Shown in pieces: positions 7,219 to 30,510 of a stretch of 64,000 bases of DNA; within the stretch, counting starts at the first letter, position 1, and each line of letters opens with the position of its first letter. This DNA comes from Natronobacterium texcoconense (GTDB taxonomy: Archaea > Halobacteriota > Halobacteria > Halobacteriales > Natrialbaceae): positions 1,160,995 to 1,224,994 of the forward strand of contig NZ_FNLC01000002.1 in assembly GCF_900104065.1 (NCBI RefSeq), in the 5' to 3' direction. The notes under the pieces were generated by a model. The model was not told the DNA's origin. It ran no database searches and was given only the letters and a program-made list of their open reading frames with translations. A program made the translations under genes and the position numbers.

Positions 7219-8442
7219 ATGCAGGATATCGTTCAGGACGCACTCGACAACGCGGAAGAGGAACAAAAGCAGATGGACATCGAACTCGACAGCGACGAGT
7301 TCGGTGATCCACGCATCGTCATCGTCGGCTGCGGTGGCGCGGGGAACAACACGGTCAACCGACTGTACAACATCGGCGTCGAGGGTGCTGACACCGTCGC
7401 GATCAACACGGACAAACAGCACCTGAAGATGATCGAAGCCGACACGAAGATCCTGATCGGCAAGTCGCTGACCAGCGGTCTCGGCGCGGGCGGCGACCCC
7501 TCGATGGGTGAGCGCGCGACCGAGATGGCACAGGGGACCATCAAGGAGGTACTTGGGGATGCGGACCTCGTGTTCGTTACTGCAGGGATGGGTGGCGGCA
7601 CCGGGACGGGTGCCGCTCCCGTGGTCTCGGAGATCGCCAAAGAACAGGGCGCGATCGTCGTCGGCATGGTCTCGACGCCGTTCAACGTCGAGCGTGCGCG
7701 GACGGTCAAGGCCGAAGAAGGCCTCGAGCGACTGCGCGAGCAGGCCGACTCGATCATCGTCCTCGACAACAACCGGCTGCTCGACTACGTGCCGAACCTT
7801 CCGATCGGCAAGGCCTTTTCGGTCATGGACCAGATCATCGCCGAGACGGTCAAGGGTATCTCGGAGACGATTACACAGCCCTCGCTGATCAACCTGGACT
7901 ACGCGGACATGTCCACCATCATGAATCAGGGCGGCGTCGCCGTGATGCTCGTCGGGGAGACACAAGACAAGAACAAGACCGACGAAGTCGTCAAAGACGC
8001 GATGAACCACCCACTGCTCGACGTCGACTACCGTGGAGCGTCGGGTGGCCTGGTCCACATCACCGGCGGTCCCGACCTCACACTGAAAGAGGCCGAAGGG
8101 ATCGCCGACAACATCACCGAACGCCTCGAGGCCTCCGCGAACGTTATCTGGGGCGCTCGCATTCAGGAGGACTACAAGGGCAAGGTTCGCGTGATGGCGA
8201 TCATGACCGGCGTCCAGAGTGCACAGGTACTCGGCCCGACGACACAGAAGCAGGCAGACCGCTCGCGTGCCAGCATCGAAGGGCTCAACGACGCCGACTT
8301 CGACGCGAGCAACCACGTCGAAGACGTCAACTCGGCTTCGACCTCGCAGTCGCGTACTCGTTCGAACACCGACTACGGAGCCCAAAGCGACGGAGGTCGA
8401 AACGAGGTCGAACAGCAAAACGGCGTCGACGTGATCCGGTAA
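7219..8442 (+). CDS. ftsZ2: cell division protein FtsZ, type 2 (FtsZ2), 407 aa
   Basis: Tubulin/FtsZ GTPase. N-terminal extension of about 30 residues with an acidic stretch, then [17 protein letters not shown] (nucleotide-binding loop), the tubulin signature [14 protein letters not shown] at about 121-134, and the T7 synergy region [11 protein letters not shown] at about 226-236. The C-terminus is an acidic/Ser-rich tail ending NGVDVIR. In haloarchaea FtsZ1 and FtsZ2 form the division ring; FtsZ2 drives constriction. Position right after cdrS and the GRN/VDVIR-type tail favour FtsZ2. Transcribed with cdrS; probably regulated through the GTAAGAC array. Confidence 0.95.
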
Positions 8443-8520
8443 CTGCACTCGAGGCCGTCTCGGATTTTGCCGATTTTCTTGAACCGAAAGCTCGTAAGCC
8501 AGTGGCAACTGAATCCGTAT

Positions 8521-9303
8521 ATGCACGCGCTCGTCTTCGCAGCCGGCCGCGGGAGCCGTTTACGGCCGTATACGGACGAAACGCCAAAGCCGCTGCTCGA
8601 GGTCGCGGGCGAACCCATGCTCGTTCGACTATTACGGTCGATCGCCGACGCAGGGATCGAAGAGATCACCGTAGTCGTCGGCTACGGACGCGAAGCGATC
8701 GTCGACCGAGTCGGCGACTCGCTCACCGGCACGCCGATTACGTACGCCGTCCAGCACGAGCGAAAGGGGTTAGCTCACGCACTCTATACGGCCCTCGAGG
8801 ACGGGTACGGTGTCTCGTTGCCCCGGCTGGACGTTCGGAACCCCTCCCTCCCGCCGCTTCCGGAGTCGGTTCCCGAGAACGTGTTGACGGTAAACGGCGA
8901 CAACGTCTTCGAGGACTGTGATCTCTCGCGATTCGTCGAACGCCACTGTGAGACGGACGTCGACGGCACTCTCCTGCTCGATCGCGTCTCGAGAAACGAG
9001 GCCGAGACCACGGCACGCTGTGTCCTCGACGACGATGGAACGATCCGTTCGATCGAAGCTTCGACCGATGGCGCGCAACCGGGATACGTCGCGGGTGGCG
9101 TACAGACCCACGACACTGCGTCCCTTCTCGAGGCCTGTCTCTCCCTCGAGCGTGCCGACAGCGGCGAGTACGAACTTGCCGAGGCGCTCGAGTCGCTCAC
9201 CAGTCGTAACCGCTACGTCGGCATCGAACTCGAGGGTTGGCATCTGAACGTCAATACGCCCGCGGATCTCGAGCGAGCACGCCGACGGCTCGACAGTGTG
9301 TGA
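8521..9303 (+). CDS. sugar-phosphate nucleotidyltransferase, 260 aa
   Basis: NTP_transferase family. Starts MHALVFAAGRGSRLRPYTDETPKPL: the GxGxRLxPxTxxxPKPL signature binds the NTP; TVNGDNVFEDCD (about 121-132) holds the metal-binding Asp. It would activate a sugar-1-phosphate (glucose-, mannose- or N-acetylglucosamine-1-phosphate) for glycoprotein or exopolysaccharide synthesis; specificity is not clear. No C-terminal left-handed beta-helix acyltransferase domain is present, so it is a single-domain enzyme. ATG at 8521 begins directly with the catalytic domain. It follows ftsZ2 by 78 bp on the same strand but probably has its own promoter. Confidence 0.85.
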   Translation: MHALVFAAGRGSRLRPYTDETPKPLLEVAGEPMLVRLLRSIADAGIEEITVVVGYGREAIVDRVGDSLTGTPITYAVQHERKGLAHALYTALEDGYGVSLPRLDVRNPSLPPLPESVPENVLTVNGDNVFEDCDLSRFVERHCETDVDGTLLLDRVSRNEAETTARCVLDDDGTIRSIEASTDGAQPGYVAGGVQTHDTASLLEACLSLERADSGEYELAEALESLTSRNRYVGIELEGWHLNVNTPADLERARRRLDSV

Positions 9304-19811: not shown

Positions 19812-21017
19812 CTACAGACAGTCGTTTTCGAACAGGGTATCGATCGCATCGTCGTCGTATCCCAGCGCCCGAAGGACGGGCTCGGTGTCCGCACCGAGTT
19901 CGGGCGGATCGCTGGGTTCTACGGGGGAGAACGCCGACGAGCGGAGCGGGAATTTCGGGACAGAGACGTTTTCTCGATCGCCAGTGGCAGTCTCGATTTC
20001 GGTGAGTGCATCGGTTTCACGAAGATGGTCGTCCTCGCAGACTTCCTGGGCGTCCTGGACCGGTGCGACAGGAACGCCCGCGTCACGGAGTCTATCTATG
20101 AGGGTACTGGCGGTATAGTCGTCAATAGCTTCCTGAAGTGTGGAATCGAGCGCCGATTCGTTCTCCCGTCGGTCCGCAAGCGTTGCGAACCGATCTTCGT
20201 GGTGAAGTTCGATCTCGAGGGCCTCACAGAGCTGTTCCCACTGTGCCTGTGACGACGGACCGATGAACACCCACTCGCTGTCGGTCGTTCGATAGACGTT
20301 GTACGGGGCCCAGTTGTTGTGACCGGCACCCAGTGGATCGGGGGCTTCGTTCTCTGTCTGGGCGTAGACCAGCCAGTAATTCATCAGGGTGACCGTGCTC
20401 TCGAACAGCGGTGCGGTAATGTGTTGCCCCTCGCCCGTGTGTTCGCGCTGACGCAGTCCGGCAACGACGCCGAACGCACCGAAGAGAGCAGCGGTCATGT
20501 CCGAGACGCTCGTTCCGGCGCGTGCAGGCGGACTATCCGGGTGGCCTGTAACACTCATGAGCCCGGAGAGCGCCTCTGCAACGGGATCAAGCGCAGGAAG
20601 ATCTTGGTACGGCCCCTCGTTGAATCCCTTGATAGAGCAGTATACGAGTTCTTCGTTCACCTCGCGGAGATCGTCATAGCCGATACCTAGCTTCTCCGGT
20701 GAACCCGGTCGAAGATTCTCGACGAAGACGTCCGCCTCGGCGATGAGGTCCGTGAACGCTTCGTGACCGCCGCTCGTTTTCAGGTCGAGCGTTACCCCCA
20801 GTTTGTTTCGGTTCAGAGCGTTGAATATACTGTTTCCAGCAGCAGAGCTGTCTCGAACGGAGTCACCGCCGCTCGCACGTCGTTCGACCTTGACCACGTC
20901 GGCTCCGAGTTCTGCAAGCAACAGGGTACAGAAGGGGCCGGCTGCAATGTGGCCGAGTTCGACGACGGTAACGTCTTCCAGTGGGCGATCCTCCGGTTGG
21001 GTAGTATCGTGTATCAT
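19812..21017 (-). CDS. class III CoA-transferase (CaiB/BaiF/Frc family), 401 aa
   Basis: Full-length family member. N-terminus PLEDVTVVELGHIAAGPFCTLLLAELGADVVKVE is the classic CoA-binding start; FVENLRPGSPEKLGIGYDDL and LVYCSIKGFNEGPY follow, then ALDPVAEALSGLMSVTG with the catalytic Asp (D in A-L-D-P-V, about 143). C-terminal DAGVPVAPVQDAQEV is also typical. Such enzymes move CoA between carboxylic acids (for example formyl-/oxalate, succinyl-/mesaconate or citramalate). It is the last gene of the tctC-tctB-tctA transcription direction, 91 bp after tctA, so it probably activates the imported acid. Succinate:mesaconate transferases of the methylaspartate cycle belong to the same family, so that is the alternative. 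Confidence 0.85.
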   Translation of the reverse strand: MIHDTTQPEDRPLEDVTVVELGHIAAGPFCTLLLAELGADVVKVERRASGGDSVRDSSAAGNSIFNALNRNKLGVTLDLKTSGGHEAFTDLIAEADVFVENLRPGSPEKLGIGYDDLREVNEELVYCSIKGFNEGPYQDLPALDPVAEALSGLMSVTGHPDSPPARAGTSVSDMTAALFGAFGVVAGLRQREHTGEGQHITAPLFESTVTLMNYWLVYAQTENEAPDPLGAGHNNWAPYNVYRTTDSEWVFIGPSSQAQWEQLCEALEIELHHEDRFATLADRRENESALDSTLQEAIDDYTASTLIDRLRDAGVPVAPVQDAQEVCEDDHLRETDALTEIETATGDRENVSVPKFPLRSSAFSPVEPSDPPELGADTEPVLRALGYDDDAIDTLFENDCL

Positions 21018-21108
21018 GTATTATATTACGTCTCATTGGTTACTTCGCGAGCTATACGGTACGCACTAATTTCGGCATATGAGCGAGAAATAGTGGCTGG
21101 ACGGCCGA

Positions 21109-22602
21109 TCACGCCTCATCACCGTGGCGCTTGACGTACCAGCTCTTGAGAGGCGGGCCGAGGAGAATCAGTGCAACGGCCACGACCAACAAGCGGGACG
21201 GCCAGCTCTCGACGAAGATCCACCACGATCCATCCGACAACTGTAACGATCGGAGGAAGTTCTCCTCTGCAATCGGCCCCAGAACGATTCCGAGGATGAA
21301 AGCGATTACAGAGTAGTCGTGTTTGAACATGTAGTAGCCGACTGCGCCGAGGAGTAAGATCGTCGCGACGTCGAACCAGTTACTCCGGAGCGTGAACCCG
21401 CCTGCAATAGCCAGAACGATGATAACTGGTATCAGATAGTCGGTGTTCACTCGAGTGAGATACTCCGTTTTGGTGATCAGCGCCAGTCCGACTGACAGAA
21501 TGAGGATATTACCGACGAACAGAGCGATAAACACGCTGTACGTGAGGCTGAGTTCGGTCTCGAATAGCTCCGGGCCCGGCTGCAGGCCGTGCATCAGCAG
21601 GCCACCGAGCAGTACGGCGGTCGCACCGGAGCCCGGAATCCCGAACGATAGTGCCGGGATGAGAGAGCCACCGACGGTGCCGTTGTTCGACGCTTCGGCA
21701 GCAATGACGCCAGTAACCTCCCCGTTTCCGAACTTGTCGGATGCGGAAGAGCGCACCGCTTCACCGTACGCGACGAAGTTCGAGACTGCCGCACCGGATC
21801 CCGGGAGTGATCCGATACCCATTCCCAGGAACGCGGATTTCACCAGCGTTACGGGTCGATCGATGACTTCCCGGATACCAGTTCTCACGTCACCGGACGT
21901 GTCGACGTCCGATCGAGCGATCCCGCCGGACTCTCCGACGAGTTTCAACATTTCCGCGATAGCGAACAGTCCCAGGATCGCTGCTACGAAGGAGATCCCG
22001 TCGAATAGGGCGAGAGAACCGCCAGTAAACCGGGTCTCGGAACTCATCGGGGCAATTCCGATCGTCGTCAACAACAGGCCGAACGCGCCAGCAACGAGTC
22101 CCTTTACCATCGAGCCTCGAGCGACGATGGTGATCATCGAGAGGCCGAGAACGGCGACCAGGAAGTACTCCGGCGACCCCATCATGAGCACGATGGTCAC
22201 GATGAGGGGAGAGATGAGGATCAGTAGCGCTATCGTCATGAATCCCGCGAGCGCGGACGCGACAGCCGATGACGAGAGGGCAGTCGCCGCCATCCCCTGT
22301 CGCGACATCGGGTACCCGTCGAACGTGGTCGCTGCAGCGGCTGCAGTACCTGGTACGTTGACGAGAATGGCTGCTATGGAGCCACCGTACATCGACCCGG
22401 AGTAGATACCGACGAGCAGGATGATCGCGTTCGCCCCGCCGAGTGGGATCGTAAGCGGAAGGACGATCGCCATTCCGAGGTTGGGTCCGATCCCCGGGAT
22501 GGCACCGACGAAGATCCCTAGTAGGACACCGACAGCCATCCAACCGATAGTCGGCCAGGAGAACACGATGTGGATCCCCTCGACGAACGCTTCGAACGCC
22601 AT
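21109..22602 (-). CDS. tctA: tripartite tricarboxylate transporter permease TctA, 497 aa
   Basis: Large TTT-family membrane subunit with about 11-12 helices. Family signatures: GAIPGIGPNLGMAIVLPLT near the N-terminus, GSMYGGSIAAILVNVPGTAAAAATTFDGYP (about 61-90), and in the second half EASNNGTVGGSLIPALSFGIPGSGATAVLLGGLLMHG, the repeated P-G-x-x-x-A motif. Start ATG at 22602 lies one base before the tctB stop codon, so it is cotranscribed and coupled. Works with the periplasmic-type binding protein TctC and small subunit TctB in ion-driven uptake of di-/tricarboxylates. Confidence 0.92.
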   Translation of the reverse strand: MAFEAFVEGIHIVFSWPTIGWMAVGVLLGIFVGAIPGIGPNLGMAIVLPLTIPLGGANAIILLVGIYSGSMYGGSIAAILVNVPGTAAAAATTFDGYPMSRQGMAATALSSSAVASALAGFMTIALLILISPLIVTIVLMMGSPEYFLVAVLGLSMITIVARGSMVKGLVAGAFGLLLTTIGIAPMSSETRFTGGSLALFDGISFVAAILGLFAIAEMLKLVGESGGIARSDVDTSGDVRTGIREVIDRPVTLVKSAFLGMGIGSLPGSGAAVSNFVAYGEAVRSSASDKFGNGEVTGVIAAEASNNGTVGGSLIPALSFGIPGSGATAVLLGGLLMHGLQPGPELFETELSLTYSVFIALFVGNILILSVGLALITKTEYLTRVNTDYLIPVIIVLAIAGGFTLRSNWFDVATILLLGAVGYYMFKHDYSVIAFILGIVLGPIAEENFLRSLQLSDGSWWIFVESWPSRLLVVAVALILLGPPLKSWYVKRHGDEA

Positions 22603-22603
22603 C

Positions 22604-23131
22604 TTAGAGCACCCCCCGCGGCAGGAGTAGCCCTCTATCGAGCGGTGCGTTCGCCAACGAGATGAACGCAAAGCAGATCCCGATAGAGACGACGATCAGT
22701 ACTGCAGCGTAGAGCGGTCGCTGGTCGTTCCAGTACGCGTACGCTGCGACGAATATCGGTGTTGCAATCAGTACACTAACGACGTACGCAAGGCCGACGT
22801 AGCCGGTGATCGAACCATAGAGGAATTGACGGCTCGTAAGTAACCGTTCTTCTCCCGCTTCCGTTCGATCCTTCCCGTCGTCTTCACCGGTGGTTTCGAA
22901 TTCCTCTTGGTCGACTAGATCGACTGGTTCGGCCACGACTCGTTGGAGGACCGGCGGCAGGTAGTCCTCGAACGCGATCAACGCAACGCCGACGATGACG
23001 ATGGCGCCGGTCAGCCGCGGGAACAACGTCGCCGATCCCGAATCGAATGTGGCAGTGAGAGCAACGAAAACGACCGCCACAGCGAGAAACACGACGAGAA
23101 GACCGGCTTCAGAACGGGACTGAATAGACAT
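22604..23131 (-). CDS. tctB: tripartite tricarboxylate transporter small subunit TctB, 175 aa
   Basis: Four membrane helices (about 9-28, 36-55, 106-128, 135-160) with an acidic cytoplasmic loop (EFETTGEDDGKDRTEAGEE) between helices 2 and 3. Size and position between tctC and tctA identify the DUF1468/TctB subunit even though this family has little sequence conservation. Its stop is adjacent to the tctA ATG; 12 bp separate it from tctC. Confidence 0.85.
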   Translation of the reverse strand: MSIQSRSEAGLLVVFLAVAVVFVALTATFDSGSATLFPRLTGAIVIVGVALIAFEDYLPPVLQRVVAEPVDLVDQEEFETTGEDDGKDRTEAGEERLLTSRQFLYGSITGYVGLAYVVSVLIATPIFVAAYAYWNDQRPLYAAVLIVVSIGICFAFISLANAPLDRGLLLPRGVL

Positions 23132-23143
23132 ATGAACGAGCTA

Positions 23144-24130
23144 TTAGGAATCGTCTTGAAGGTCGTCGATGTCGACGACGTCTGGAATATCACTCCAAAT
23201 CTGTTCAAGGACGTCGTCGGCTTCTTCCGGCGGACCGTAGGTCATGGTGTTCCCGGTTTCGTCGGCCCACTCCTGTATGGTATCACTTTCGACAGTCGCT
23301 TCGACAGCCTCAGTGAGAGTTTCGAGCTGTTCTTCGGGCGTTCCCGGTGGAACCCACATGGAACGAGTGATCTGGCCAATGAAGTCCATGTTTTCGTATC
23401 CGAGTTCCGTAATGACGGGGGCATCGGGGAAGATTTCACTACCGTTACTGGTCAGCACAGCCAGAACGTCTACTTCGTCGCTCTCGGCAGCAGGCAACGC
23501 GCTACCGTCAGTGTTGAAAGCTGCAGGGATTTCACCGGACGCAACTGCCTGGTTGATCGGGCCACCGCCGGAGTACTCGACGTAGTTCTCCCAGCCCATT
23601 CCGTACTCCTGTTCGAAGAACGCTGCGTTCGGGAGGTAGCTCGCTCCGAGACCGCCGATGTTTCCGAACTCTCCGTCGTTGTATCGATCGATCAAGTCGG
23701 CGACATCGTCGAACTCCTCGTCAGGGTCACCGATGAGGACGATCGCGTTGAGGCCGATCGTGGCGAGCCCCTGCAGGTCCTCCATGTCGAAGTCTGGCGG
23801 ATTGACCATCGCCTGTACGGACGTAGTAAACGGATTGAATTTACCGATAGTGTACCCGTCCGGTTCTTCGCCCAACAACTGACCGATTCCACGCATCGCA
23901 CCGGCCCCCGGGACGTTCTCGATGTGGATGTCCGTCCCGAGTTCTTCGGACAGCGGGTCCGCCATCTGACGAAAGATGTTGTCTGCACCGCCACCTTCGT
24001 CGTAGGGGATAATCGACGTGATCGTATCGGCGGGGTACTCACCGTCACTACCGAGACACCCTGCAAGAGAGGCGGTCAATGCGATACCCGACGTCTTTAC
24101 GACATTTCGGCGTGAAATTCTTCTTGTCAT
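23144..24130 (-). CDS. tctC: TctC-type solute-binding lipoprotein (Bug family), 328 aa
   Basis: ATG at 24130 gives MTRRISRRNVVKTSGIALTASLAGC: a twin-arginine signal (R-R-N-V-V) followed by a lipobox L-A-G-C, so a Tat-exported, lipid-anchored receptor as usual in haloarchaea. Mature part follows the Bug/TctC pattern: IIPYDEGGGADNIFRQMADPL (the first carboxylate-binding loop), ENVPGAGAMRGIGQL, and DFIGQITRSMWVPPGTPEEQLETL near the C-terminus. Ligand not predictable beyond a carboxylate. First gene of the tctCBA-CoA-transferase unit; the divergent HTH-10 regulator starts 235 bp away. Confidence 0.9.
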   Translation of the reverse strand: MTRRISRRNVVKTSGIALTASLAGCLGSDGEYPADTITSIIPYDEGGGADNIFRQMADPLSEELGTDIHIENVPGAGAMRGIGQLLGEEPDGYTIGKFNPFTTSVQAMVNPPDFDMEDLQGLATIGLNAIVLIGDPDEEFDDVADLIDRYNDGEFGNIGGLGASYLPNAAFFEQEYGMGWENYVEYSGGGPINQAVASGEIPAAFNTDGSALPAAESDEVDVLAVLTSNGSEIFPDAPVITELGYENMDFIGQITRSMWVPPGTPEEQLETLTEAVEATVESDTIQEWADETGNTMTYGPPEEADDVLEQIWSDIPDVVDIDDLQDDS

Positions 24131-24280
24131 GGTTACACATGCGATCCGATCATCGATCGACCACGAACTGTAGTGGAGCGGTAACGACTGTCGTACTGGC
24201 ACCAAGCACCCCCCACTGGTTCTTGATGATCGTTAGTCCGGATCACGGATCAGAAATGAGGAGTACGTTGAATATCGTTT

Positions 24281-24340
24281 TAGCCTATATCAGTAGGCTA
24301 TTTATATACCACCATTGTGAATAAACTGACAAAATATTCA
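24281..24340. promoter_or_regulatory. operator-like palindromes between tctC and the HTH-10 regulator
   Basis: Perfect inverted repeat TAGCCTA-TATCAG-TAGGCTA at 24281-24300, directly followed by a TATA-like TTTATATA (24301-24308) for the rightward regulator gene, and a second inverted repeat TGAATA-N11-TATTCA at 24318-24340. The first sits immediately upstream of the core promoter of the regulator and within reach of the tctC promoter, as expected for an autoregulated, substrate-controlled divergent unit. Confidence 0.55.
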
Positions 24341-24365
24341 TAGCGGTTGTACTGTACATCCGATT

Positions 24366-25004
24366 ATGCTCCGAAGCACCGTCCACATAGACCTGAATAC
24401 TGACTACGTACTCAACGAGGTGACCACGTCGATCGGCCATCCGATCACGATTACCCGGGGTGAAGTCCACAGAGATGGAACTCTGACGTTCATCGCCGAA
24501 GTTCCCGACTCGCGTGACGAAATTGCACTCCAGATGGAAGAATCGGACGTCGTCGACCGAGTCGGCACCATCGGTGACAACGGTCTGTTGGTTCGGAAAC
24601 CCTCTAGCGGCGCCACGCCCATAATATGCAAGCACAATGGCATACTGTTCGGGATAAACGTATTCGGCACTAAACGGATAATTGATGTGTTGACGTTTTC
24701 GAGAGCGGACATTCGGCACATGGTACAAGAGTTCGAAGAACTCGGCCAGGTAAATCTCGGAAAAATTACACAGGTGTCCAACAGGCCAGCAGGACTATCA
24801 AAGAGACAACAAGAAATCGTCGAGAAAGCACTTCAGGAAGGATACTACGACTGGCCTCGAGAAACGGACGCCGAAGAGCTCGCGGCGGAATTCGGAATAA
24901 CCCACCCGACGTTGGCAGAACACCTTCGGAAAGCAGAAAAAAAGCTAATCGAGCAGGCACTCCACACGTCTCAGGGCGAAATATTCGAAATTCCGATCGA
25001 ATAA
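24366..25004 (+). CDS. HTH-10 (bacterio-opsin-activator type) transcriptional regulator, 212 aa
   Basis: Residues about 1-140 form the Bat-type N-terminal sensory/scaffold domain without recognised PAS or GAF motifs; residues about 150-205 carry the HTH_10 domain LSKRQQEIVEKALQEGYYDWPRETDAEELAAEFGITHPTLAEHLRKAEKKLI. This family is a haloarchaeal speciality. Position between the divergent tctCBA operon and the DRE-TIM enzyme suggests it controls both, probably in response to the transported acid. A TATA-like box lies at 24301-24308. Confidence 0.85.
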   Translation: MLRSTVHIDLNTDYVLNEVTTSIGHPITITRGEVHRDGTLTFIAEVPDSRDEIALQMEESDVVDRVGTIGDNGLLVRKPSSGATPIICKHNGILFGINVFGTKRIIDVLTFSRADIRHMVQEFEELGQVNLGKITQVSNRPAGLSKRQQEIVEKALQEGYYDWPRETDAEELAAEFGITHPTLAEHLRKAEKKLIEQALHTSQGEIFEIPIE

Positions 25005-25126
25005 GGGGACCGGACTGCCCGTTCCATTTGATTGGTTCTCGAACGAGTAGGTATAAACGACCAACCTGTGATGGCCGAATCTACTTTCGGAAATACCCGT
25101 TTCTCGTCATAAGAGCTGATCTAACG

Positions 25127-25192
25127 ATGAACGCGAAAATACCCCCAGAAGGGAGGCAGATCTGTACTCGAGCGGCTGGGGGAGAAGCATGA
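25127..25192 (+). CDS. possible 21-aa leader peptide overlapping the DRE-TIM gene start
   Basis: ATG at 25127 opens a 21-codon frame (MNAKIPPEGRQ...) whose TGA (25190-25192) overlaps the ATG of the next gene in the form ATGA. This is the geometry of translational coupling. A TATA-like GGTATAAAC at about 25050-25058 would start transcription some 45-50 nt before this ATG. It may be chance; no Leu-rich attenuator pattern is present. Confidence 0.35.
   Translation: MNAKIPPEGRQICTRAAGGEA
25142..25182 (+). promoter_or_regulatory. hairpin sequestering the ribosome-binding site of the DRE-TIM gene
   Basis: CCCCCAG (25142-25148) and CTGGGGG (25176-25182) form a 7-bp GC-rich stem with a 27-base loop. 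The 3' arm is part of the purine-rich GGGGGAG just before the ATG at 25189, so folding would hide the likely Shine-Dalgarno region. Fits control of translation initiation, perhaps opened by ribosomes on the short upstream frame. Confidence 0.4.
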
Positions 25193-26286
25193 TCTTGAAC
25201 GATGTTACTCTCCGGGAAGGCGAACAGATGCCCGACCGGAACTATACCGTCGAACAAAAGGTCGAGGCTGGCCTCGAACTGTCCGAACTTGGTGTAGAAT
25301 CCCTGGAAGTCGGATTTCCAGTGACTGGCGAAAAGGACCGCGAAGCGATACGGACGCTCGCAGTGGAAGCCGAAGCAGACATCGTCGGTCTCGCTCGTGC
25401 CGTCCCGGGTGACGTCGAGGCTGCGGCGGATGCGTCTGCGGACGTCATTCAGGTGATGGTGCCGACGTCCGACTACCAGCTAGACCACGTACTCGACAAG
25501 GATCGCGAGTCGGTGCTACAGATGGCTCGCGAAGCGGTCGATCTGGTCGTCGACCACGGAGCGGTTCCTCATCTCATCCTCGTCGATGCGTTCCGAACGG
25601 AAGTCGAGGAGATTCGTACCGTCGCTCACGAGTTCGACGGCGTCGAATGTATAACGCTCGCCGACACGGTCGGCGCGCGATTGCCGAGCGGTGTACAGCG
25701 GTTACTCGAGAAACTCGAACCGAGCGTCGATCTCGAGCGGTTCGGCGTCCACTTTCACGACGACCTGGGGGTCGGGACGGCGAACGTCCTCACCGCCTAC
25801 CAGGCTGGTATCGGCAAAGCCGACGTGAGCGTCGCGTCGCTGGGAGAGCGGGCAGGAAACTCGTCACTGGAGGAGGTCGTCGTCGGGGGCGTCCTGGAAC
25901 ACGACGAGGATTTCGGCGTCGAGACGGACGAACTGATCCCGAAGTGTGAACGCGTGCTCGACGTACTGGGCGAGCAGGACGCTATCAGCGACAGAAAGGC
26001 GATTCTCGGTTCGGAAGTGACGAAACACGAGTCGGGGATCCACACGGCAGCGATGCTGAACGAACCGAAGACGTTCGAACCGTTCGATCCCGGGGATTTC
26101 GGTGGAGAGCGGGACCTGCTGTTCGGCGAAGGGACCGGTACCACCGGCGCCTCGATACTGTTGTCCCGGGCTGGAGTTACACCTACCGACGAGCGGGTGG
26201 AGTCGTTCCTGTCGGTACTCGCCGACGAGGGGCCGGTCGATACGGAAGAAGCCGTTTCGATCGCCGAGGCGAACTTCCAGGCATAA
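25189..26286 (+). CDS. DRE-TIM metallolyase (isopropylmalate/homocitrate/citramalate synthase family), 365 aa
   Basis: HMGL-like TIM barrel. Start MILNDVTLREGEQMPDRNYT has the DRE motif (D5, R9, E10); metal-binding H188-F-H190 in FGVHFHDDLGVGTAN; LGERAGNSSLEEVV (218-231) and TKHESGIHTAAM (about 280-291) are the signatures of acyl-CoA-condensing members rather than of HMG-CoA lyase. No C-terminal LeuA regulatory domain, as in homocitrate synthase (NifV) or short citramalate synthases. Reaction: 2-oxoacid plus acetyl-CoA to a 2-alkylmalate, or the reverse cleavage. Its place beside the carboxylate importer, CoA-transferase and regulator suggests a catabolic or assimilation role in that module, not leucine synthesis. 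Confidence 0.8.
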   Translation: MILNDVTLREGEQMPDRNYTVEQKVEAGLELSELGVESLEVGFPVTGEKDREAIRTLAVEAEADIVGLARAVPGDVEAAADASADVIQVMVPTSDYQLDHVLDKDRESVLQMAREAVDLVVDHGAVPHLILVDAFRTEVEEIRTVAHEFDGVECITLADTVGARLPSGVQRLLEKLEPSVDLERFGVHFHDDLGVGTANVLTAYQAGIGKADVSVASLGERAGNSSLEEVVVGGVLEHDEDFGVETDELIPKCERVLDVLGEQDAISDRKAILGSEVTKHESGIHTAAMLNEPKTFEPFDPGDFGGERDLLFGEGTGTTGASILLSRAGVTPTDERVESFLSVLADEGPVDTEEAVSIAEANFQA

Positions 26287-29077: not shown

Positions 29078-29284
29078 ATGACGAGCATCGAATCAATCGA
29101 GGTCAAACGACCGTTCTCGCGAGTGGCTAAAGCCGGACGCAACCCCTGGGGTCGAACCGGTGAGAACGGGCATCCATTCTCGGGTAATCGGCCCCGATTT
29201 CGTCGAAATCGGATCGGCGTTGGGAGGGGGCGAGCAACGACGGACGGGTCCCTCGAGACCGTCGCCAGTGGGGGCGACCGATGA
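29078..29284 (+). CDS. small ORF coupled to the recombinase-like gene, 68 aa
   Basis: MTSIESIEVKRPFSRVAKAG then a basic, Gly/Arg-rich stretch with GRNPWGRTGENGHPFSGNRP. The stop TGA (29282-29284) overlaps the ATG of the following gene as ATGA, the usual sign of translational coupling. A TATA-like box lies about 35 bp upstream of its ATG. Unusually basic for this organism. I do not recognise a family; it may be a DNA-binding partner of the recombinase or a leader. Confidence 0.4.
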   Translation: MTSIESIEVKRPFSRVAKAGRNPWGRTGENGHPFSGNRPRFRRNRIGVGRGRATTDGSLETVASGGDR

Positions 29285-30510
29285 GCGGCGGCCAGACGAC
29301 AATCCGCTGGTCGCGGATGTCCCTCGAGGAACTCCAGTCGTTCTGGACCGACGAGATCGAACCCGCCCTCGAGCGTGCCGGCGTCGACCGCGAGGAACGG
29401 CCGGCCTACCAGCAGGTCGCCGACGCTGGTTACTCGGGGATCGCCTATGCCTTGCGGGAACATCACGACATGACGCTGACCGACTTCCTCGTGACGGTCG
29501 GCTACGAGGAACCCGGTTCGTCGGCGTCCTACCAGTGGGGGATCGAGGACGAGACCACCATCGACGAACTCGAGTCGTACCTCGAGACGCTCGATCGGCG
29601 GCGACAACTCGCGAGGTCGACGGTCCAGACCAAACAGTCGCGGCTCGCGACCTATGCCCGTATCTATCGGGAGGTTCACGGTCAGGCCGACCTCGTCGAC
29701 CGCGCCGCCGACGCGACGAACGAAAGCGACGAAATCCGGCGTGCGCTGGTCGTATTCGACGAACTCAACTACGAACTCGGAACCGACGCCTCGAAACTCC
29801 GGTATCTCAGCGACGTCAGCCAGTTCTACGAACATCTCGGTCGGCGGGCCAAGGCTGCGTTCAACCCCGTCGAGCACATCGACGAGGAGTACAACTGGTC
29901 CCGCGAGGAGCCGGACAACGCCGCTCTCGCGGGCAGACAGGTGAGTCGGCTGTACGACGCTGCAGAGTCCCAGAGCAAGGAACTCGTAGTCCTCGCGCTC
30001 TGTGCGTGGGGACTGCGACGAAACGAGGTCGCGGCGTTGCACACCTCGCAACTCGTCCTCGAGGGCGAGGACCCACACATCGAATTCGGCGACGAGCGAA
30101 AGAACGGCCCGGGCACTGTTGCGTTGATCTACGGTGTGTCGGATCTCTCCGACCGAATCGATCGACTCGAGGAAGACCCCGGGTGGTCCGGCTACCTGTT
30201 TCCCTCGAGTCGGTCCTCGAGCGGCCACATTACGGGCGAGACGGTTCAGGCACGCTTTCAGCGACTCGCCGAAGATGCCGGCGTCCGCGTGCAGGGAGAG
30301 CTGCCGACCTCGAAGATGGGGCGGCGGTTCTGGTATACGACCTACAACCAGGCGATGAAGAACCTGCGGGAGAACCTGGACGTGATCGCCGCCGAACAGG
30401 GCAGTTCCGACTCCTCGGTCGTCATGAAAAACTACCTCTCGGAGGAGGAACGACGGCAGTACCGTCGAGAGTTCATGCGAGAGCAACTCGAGGACGTCTT
30501 CGAGGGGTGA
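29281..30510 (+). CDS. tyrosine recombinase/integrase-like protein with altered active site, 409 aa
   Basis: N-terminal SAM-like core-binding domain (about 90-200) and a C-terminal catalytic-like domain. Arg I is in CAWGLRRNEVAALH (R246/R247), a Lys in GDERKNGPG, Arg II in SKMGRRFWYTTY (R348/R349), and the final Tyr in VMKNYLSEEE (Y385). The usual His of H-x-L-R is Lys345, and the G-H-S-S motif before the Tyr is GSSDSS, so both active-site His/Trp positions are replaced. The first 90 residues are an extra acidic domain. It could be a host-domesticated recombinase or DNA-binding protein. No tRNA or att site is adjacent. 70 bp before rio2 on the same strand. Confidence 0.7.
   Translation: MSGGQTTIRWSRMSLEELQSFWTDEIEPALERAGVDREERPAYQQVADAGYSGIAYALREHHDMTLTDFLVTVGYEEPGSSASYQWGIEDETTIDELESYLETLDRRRQLARSTVQTKQSRLATYARIYREVHGQADLVDRAADATNESDEIRRALVVFDELNYELGTDASKLRYLSDVSQFYEHLGRRAKAAFNPVEHIDEEYNWSREEPDNAALAGRQVSRLYDAAESQSKELVVLALCAWGLRRNEVAALHTSQLVLEGEDPHIEFGDERKNGPGTVALIYGVSDLSDRIDRLEEDPGWSGYLFPSSRSSSGHITGETVQARFQRLAEDAGVRVQGELPTSKMGRRFWYTTYNQAMKNLRENLDVIAAEQGSSDSSVVMKNYLSEEERRQYRREFMREQLEDVFEG

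Follow-up and report, generated by a model that had tools for sequence, protein, structure and literature searches.

In a 64,000-nucleotide stretch of the Natronobacterium texcoconense genome (contig NZ_FNLC01000002.1, positions 1,160,995 to 1,224,994 of the forward strand; hereafter the window), six genes form a block that encodes a family III (CaiB/BaiF) coenzyme A (CoA)-transferase, the TctCBA tripartite tricarboxylate transporter (TTT), an HTH_10 regulator and a DRE-TIM enzyme. The CoA-transferase and the DRE-TIM enzyme are the core of a module that recurs among haloarchaea, in which TctCBA is interchangeable. The DRE-TIM enzyme is not a housekeeping enzyme: it belongs to a clade separate from 2-isopropylmalate synthase (LeuA), citramalate synthase (CimA) and 3-hydroxy-3-methylglutaryl (HMG)-CoA lyase. 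The module is probably an accessory catabolic one, coupling uptake and CoA transfer to retro-Claisen cleavage into acetyl-CoA and a 2-oxoacid. No published description of the module was found in the literature.

The association of the core pair was established by comparing the neighborhoods of 60 relatives with that of the window, using genes called by a simple composition-based finder and then clustered. The resulting 61 loci, which are not independent samples, come from 53 of the 293 genomes of the order (about a fifth) and span seven families. The CoA-transferase gene adjoins the DRE-TIM gene in 55 loci (48 in tandem with a gap of at most 10 bp, 7 convergent), and in four further loci (the window, L040, L043 and L091) the two are separated by Tct genes, which brings the loci with the pair in one block to 59 of the 61. 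Haloferax gibbonsii and H. lucentense are among the carriers of the pair. At L073 the CoA-transferase gene is found only at a distance, 2.8 kb from the DRE-TIM gene, and at L048, on a plasmid of Halalkalicoccus sp. CGA53, there is none at the locus; the DRE-TIM gene is there (L048/L159) flanked by a C-terminal piece of TctA and, on the other side, by a transposase, and this locus looks like a decaying copy. Since the strain's genome encodes only four family III CoA-transferases, chance adjacency of the core pair is unlikely. Furthermore, an HTH_10 gene occurs within 7.5 kb in 49 of the 61 loci. The original prediction had treated the six genes as a single carboxylate-use module, and the set is indeed kept together in relatives, as the whole block in L040 and L043 and as the core in 59 of the 61 loci; TctCBA, which it counted as a component, belongs to the window block but not to the core, and at least three other kinds of importer occur in its stead.

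The strain's genome encodes three HMGL-like proteins, of which the window enzyme is the third. One paralogue lies in a LeuA-IlvB-IlvC-LeuC-LeuD gene order, and the second, a LeuA/CimA-type protein of 545 aa, is encoded on a different contig. Haloferax volcanii has two paralogues, HVO_0644, the disruption of which leads to isoleucine auxotrophy, and an attributed 2-isopropylmalate synthase (PMC4300041; PMC8305020). In an 89-row tree obtained by a quick IQ-TREE search, with support given only by the Shimodaira-Hasegawa-like approximate likelihood ratio test (SH-aLRT), the window enzyme falls in a clade of 61 rows (SH-aLRT 99) that is joined by a 6-row sister group (100) and stands apart from haloarchaeal LeuA (13 rows, 99), bacterial LeuA, CimA and NifV. 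HMG-CoA lyase forms the outgroup, and the window enzyme does not group with it. This phylogeny, which the original prediction had proposed, thus leaves the window enzyme outside all four families, and the outcome in which it would be the ordinary and sole LeuA of the strain is contradicted by the two other LeuA-family enzymes. The sister clade (L114-L118 and L098, six rows) shares about 37-43% identity with the window enzyme; its gene in Halobaculum litoreum (L098) has no adjacent CoA-transferase, one being found about 7 kb off, next to genes for an aldehyde dehydrogenase and an IclR regulator. Outside the haloarchaea, where the range of the clade is poorly sampled, a single-protein scan of genome contigs yielded no more than a LeuA-like spirochaete gene of 32% identity, which groups with E. 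coli LeuA in the tree, and the best non-haloarchaeal plasmid matches are NifV proteins of at most 37% identity.

Profile searches agree with the tree. The best NCBIfam LeuA/CimA score of the window enzyme, 257.9, does not reach the cut-off of 517, and its scores against the NCBIfam citramalate synthase (91, cut-off 450) and the HMG-CoA lyase family (53 bits, cut-off 246) are lower still, whereas all of the 41 aligned members, among them 35 module enzymes, have both PF00682 (HMGL-like) and PF22617 (HCS_D2). 'Citramalate synthase' and 'LeuA family protein' are the names that PGAP gives to relatives, as would befit an extra copy of an ordinary LeuA or CimA that came to lie near a transporter by chance. 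Such an explanation, already disfavoured, is very improbable in view of the well-supported clade outside LeuA and CimA, the scores at about half of the NCBIfam cut-offs (258 against 517), the presence in the genome of an operon LeuA and a second paralogue, and the constancy of the CoA-transferase partner.

Sequence comparison indicates that the active site of the module enzyme is remodelled. The AlphaFold model of the window enzyme (mean predicted local distance difference test score of 91.9) has as its nearest solved structures the Sulfolobus homocitrate synthase, methylthioalkylmalate synthase and isopropylmalate synthase, which, together with the HCS_D2 domain, bears out the synthase-like motifs noticed originally. 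The metal-site residues R9, E10, H188, H190 and N224 are retained, as is H285. Position 10, however, is Glu in the module enzyme and Asp in LeuA, CimA, NifV and HMG-CoA lyase, and at position 40 all but one of the 61 module enzymes have Gln, as against Glu in all comparison sequences tabulated. Position 128, aligned with an Arg of homocitrate synthases and a Glu of bacterial LeuA, is His in 56 module enzymes, that of the window included. Glu132 and Tyr296 are absent from all 61 module enzymes (the window enzyme has F296) and from 13 of 13 haloarchaeal leu-type LeuA. In the latter (L102, at 7587-8927, L103-L112, L119 and L120), Met occupies the position of the conserved active-site Glu of bacterial LeuA (EDA motif) and Phe that of its Tyr; the second paralogue of the strain (L101) has both the Glu and the Tyr.

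The CoA-transferase of the window carries a full-length PF02515 domain, and its nearest solved chains are YfdE and succinate-HMG CoA-transferase. Asp173, invariant in 60 of 60 module CoA-transferases, is a candidate for its catalytic aspartate and, by the range of the alignment, would match that of Frc. The CoA-transferases that pair with the DRE-TIM clade fall into two subfamilies, A and B, with about 31% identity between them. Each DRE-TIM subclade (A or B) occurs with the CoA-transferase subfamily of the same letter, except in the window, L040 and L043, where a DRE-TIM enzyme of subclade B is combined with TctCBA and a CoA-transferase of subfamily A, so that subclade B is found with both subfamilies. 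Matches to the window TctA at 78-79% identity are confined to the L040 and L043 genomes, the next best being 65% identical. The window DRE-TIM gene occupies the same place as in these two loci but on the opposite strand, and its product groups with Haladaptatus enzymes (support 97), a pattern that suggests replacement of the gene in place. An approximately unbiased test did not reject a single origin of the pairing of TctCBA with subclade B (p 0.056), and two independent swaps are not claimed.

The importers accompanying the core likewise vary, with CUT1-type ATP-binding cassette (ABC) systems in 23 of the 61 loci, SSS symporters in 5, TctCBA in 4 and NMT1-type ABC systems in 3. Hydantoinase A/B is encoded in 17 loci, 16 of which also encode an isochorismatase-family amidohydrolase whose nearest solved relatives are N-carbamoylsarcosine amidohydrolase and other isochorismatase-family hydrolases. 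LeuCD-type hydratase pairs are found in three loci, of archaeal type in L047 and L050 and of bacterial type in L055, where the pair is also accompanied by HyuB and the amidohydrolase. One of the LeuCD-carrying relatives is Natronorubrum daqingense. The original prediction held that a hydroxy acid substrate would need no hydratase; these relatives nonetheless have one.

In the proposed route, TctCBA would import a di- or hydroxy-di/tricarboxylate, the family III CoA-transferase would move CoA to it from succinyl-CoA or acetyl-CoA, and the DRE-TIM enzyme, of LeuA/homocitrate-synthase-type ancestry, would cleave the CoA ester by a retro-Claisen reaction, yielding the products named above. The HTH_10 regulator would control expression of the module. 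LeuA-type condensation is driven forward by thioester hydrolysis, and hence running it backwards calls for a CoA ester; this requirement for a pre-activated acid would explain why the CoA-transferase is a constant partner. On these sequence grounds, cleavage of a hydroxydiacyl-CoA by the DRE-TIM enzyme appears likely; the remodelled active site and the bacterial parallels described below also speak for it. The identity of the substrate is proposed more tentatively: (R)-citramalate, giving acetyl-CoA and pyruvate, and/or (R)-malate, giving acetyl-CoA and glyoxylate, is put forward because this stereochemistry is the one handled by CimA-type enzymes. In some relatives, LeuCD-like hydratases might form these acids from citraconate or maleate, or hydantoinase and amidohydrolase might produce them from cyclic imides or ureides. 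The presence of LeuCD-type hydratases (three loci) and of the amidohydrolase suggests cis-unsaturated diacids (citraconate, maleate) upstream. Furthermore, ABC systems with substrate-binding proteins operate only in import, so that importers with binding proteins favor uptake and use.

The module could instead work in the condensing direction, with the DRE-TIM enzyme joining acetyl-CoA or another acyl-CoA to a 2-oxoacid, for chain extension of 2-oxoacids or the disposal of glyoxylate or pyruvate, and with the CoA-transferase recovering CoA from, or supplying, the acyl-CoA. The synthase ancestry and the HCS_D2 domain would fit such a role, and the LeuCD-type pairs of three modules could then be isomerases, as in leucine synthesis. 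Condensation is nonetheless unlikely, since a synthase of this type frees CoA and would make the CoA-transferase unnecessary, and since the importers and the ring and amide hydrolases are typical of breakdown. Chain extension, moreover, requires a LeuB-like dehydrogenase, and is disfavored because no LeuB-like gene was found near any module.

Several observations weigh against cleavage. The sequence of the enzyme still appears synthase-like, in its HCS_D2 domain, in His285 and in nearest relatives that are all synthases, and the window enzyme itself has Glu40, the other 60 having Gln. The loss of Glu132 and Tyr296 was considered as a sign of lyase activity and dropped, given that the strain's own leu-operon LeuA also lacks both residues; because haloarchaeal LeuA is the same in this respect, the two positions are uninformative on direction. 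Nine loci contain no importer, hydratase or hydrolase from the query set, and TctC and the ABC binding proteins have no close solved relative and yield no clue to the substrate. Lastly, an SSS carrier could run in either direction.

Cleavage of a CoA-activated hydroxydiacid has known counterparts. In Chloroflexus, the (R)-citramalyl-CoA lyase is HMG-CoA-lyase-like and its gene adjoins the transferase gene, an arrangement that is paralleled in haloarchaea by the retention of the CoA-transferase gene with the DRE-TIM gene (59 of 61 loci). Both systems combine a family III CoA-transferase with a DRE-TIM enzyme that acts, or in the haloarchaea is predicted from its gene context to act, as a lyase on a hydroxydiacid, but the haloarchaeal enzyme derives from the LeuA/homocitrate-synthase side and has an HCS_D2 domain, and its gene is found together with those of importers and HTH_10 regulators. 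The corresponding activities have been classified as succinyl-CoA:(R)-citramalate CoA-transferase (EC 2.8.3.20) and (R)-citramalyl-CoA lyase (EC 4.1.3.46) (PMC8307300). In the itaconate cluster (ict-ich-ccl), CoA transfer is likewise followed by carbon-carbon cleavage, of citramalyl-CoA to acetyl-CoA and pyruvate (PMC12290011); in contrast, no CitE-type gene was found near the haloarchaeal modules. With the 2-isopropylmalate, citramalate and homocitrate synthases (CC-like DRE-TIM), the module enzyme shares its fold, HCS_D2 and the motifs R-E/D, HxH, GERAGN and HESG.H, but it differs from them in its separate clade, its scores below all cut-offs, Gln40 (60 of 61) and His128, and in having a constant CoA-transferase partner and no leu or ilv neighbors.

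Similar pairings occur in bacteria, where several of the nearest plasmid CoA-transferases adjoin HMG-CoA-lyase-type genes. The pair is accompanied by TctC on a Comamonadaceae plasmid, and in Roseomonas mucosa by a TctA as well as several TctC. In Acidiphilium, Sphingomonas and Sphingobium it occurs with LeuCD, one gene of the isochorismatase family and two of the polysaccharide-deacetylase family; the CoA-transferases of Limimaricola and Burkholderia pyrrocinia are not beside an HMG-CoA-lyase-type gene. The isochorismatase-family protein of Acidiphilium is 35-39% identical to that of the haloarchaeal modules. On Sphingomonas and Sphingobium plasmids (L129, L130), two LeuCD pairs and an ICL/PEP-mutase-family gene surround the HMG-CoA-lyase/CoA-transferase pair, a set that is likely an uncharacterised degradation cluster. 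No experimental characterization of these proteobacterial clusters was found in the literature. They share their classes of function with the haloarchaeal modules (TctC/TctA, or LeuCD with an isochorismatase-family protein), but their DRE-TIM member is of the HMG-CoA-lyase type and the haloarchaeal one belongs to a separate clade, and the pairing of CoA-transferase and DRE-TIM enzyme therefore looks convergent. The bacterial use of HMG-CoA-lyase-type enzymes also lends some weight to a substrate other than (R)-citramalate or (R)-malate processed by the same logic, either 3-hydroxy-3-methylglutarate (SUGCT/HMG-CoA-lyase type) or a larger tricarboxylate, such as homocitrate or citrate. The proximity of the CoA-transferase to the solved succinate-hydroxymethylglutarate CoA-transferase points the same way, and His128, at the Arg position of homocitrate synthases, could bind an acidic side chain. 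The window enzyme lies outside the HMG-CoA lyase family, however, and the LeuCD-type hydratases and the carbamoylsarcosine-type amidohydrolase are a better fit for citraconate/maleate-type acids, so that such substrates seem improbable.

A broader reading of the cleavage route, for which the chances fall a little short of even, is that a LeuA/homocitrate-synthase-type enzyme became a CoA-ester lyase in haloarchaea, independently of HMG-CoA lyase, within a portable core that is combined with varied importers, hydrolases and hydratases and that converts cis-unsaturated diacids or cyclic imides to acetyl-CoA. If cleavage is true, a biosynthetic Claisen-type family would have been reversed through pairing with a CoA-transferase, two widespread database labels, 'citramalate synthase' and 'LeuA family protein', would misname the clade, and metabolic reconstructions would put a synthase in the place of a degradation enzyme. 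Each of the module subtypes (TTT, ABC, SSS, LeuCD, hydantoinase with amidohydrolase) offers a testable hint as to its substrate.

The identities of the six window genes, all as originally named, were confirmed by Pfam (Table 1).

Table 1. Genes of the module block, with positions in the window.
Feature	Position	Strand	Evidence and remarks
Family III (CaiB/BaiF) CoA-transferase, 401 aa	19812..21017	-	PF02515, E 5.9e-115; belongs to CoA-transferase subfamily A
TctA, large membrane subunit of TTT, 497 aa	21109..22602	-	PF01970, E 5.8e-127
TctB, small membrane subunit, 175 aa	22604..23131	-	PF07331, E 2.3e-08
TctC, substrate-binding lipoprotein	23144..24130	-	PF03401, E 1.1e-25; solved relatives are Bug/TctC
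HTH_10 (Bat-type) transcriptional regulator, 212 aa	24366..25004	+	PF04967, E 7e-20; divergent from tctCBA
DRE-TIM enzyme, 365 aa: HMGL-like TIM barrel and HCS_D2	25189..26286	+	Pfam, E 4e-58 and 2e-11

TctA, TctB and TctC are encoded together, as in a TTT system. The longest open reading frame of TctC begins with a TTG at 24205, but the ATG at 24130 is the likelier start; the product from it begins with a twin-arginine (Tat) motif and a LAGC lipobox. The AT-rich spacers remarked upon in the original prediction are real: of the five intergenic stretches (60-600 bp) with the lowest GC content in the window, four flank or fall within the block. Their GC fractions are 0.38, 0.45, 0.46 and 0.49, and the median is 0.56. 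The intergenic palindromes, in contrast, do not exceed chance, the best inverted repeat being matched by 26 of 60 dinucleotide shuffles in the TctC-HTH_10 spacer and by 15 of 60 in the HTH-DRE spacer. The TctC-HTH_10 spacer is, furthermore, not conserved in the two relatives with the same gene order, except for a TTTATA-like box, and the palindromes were dropped as operators on both counts. About 3 kb from the module, the protein encoded at positions 29281-30510 of the window matches Phage_integrase below the threshold (25.8 bits against a cut-off of 27.1) and may bear on the mobility of the module.
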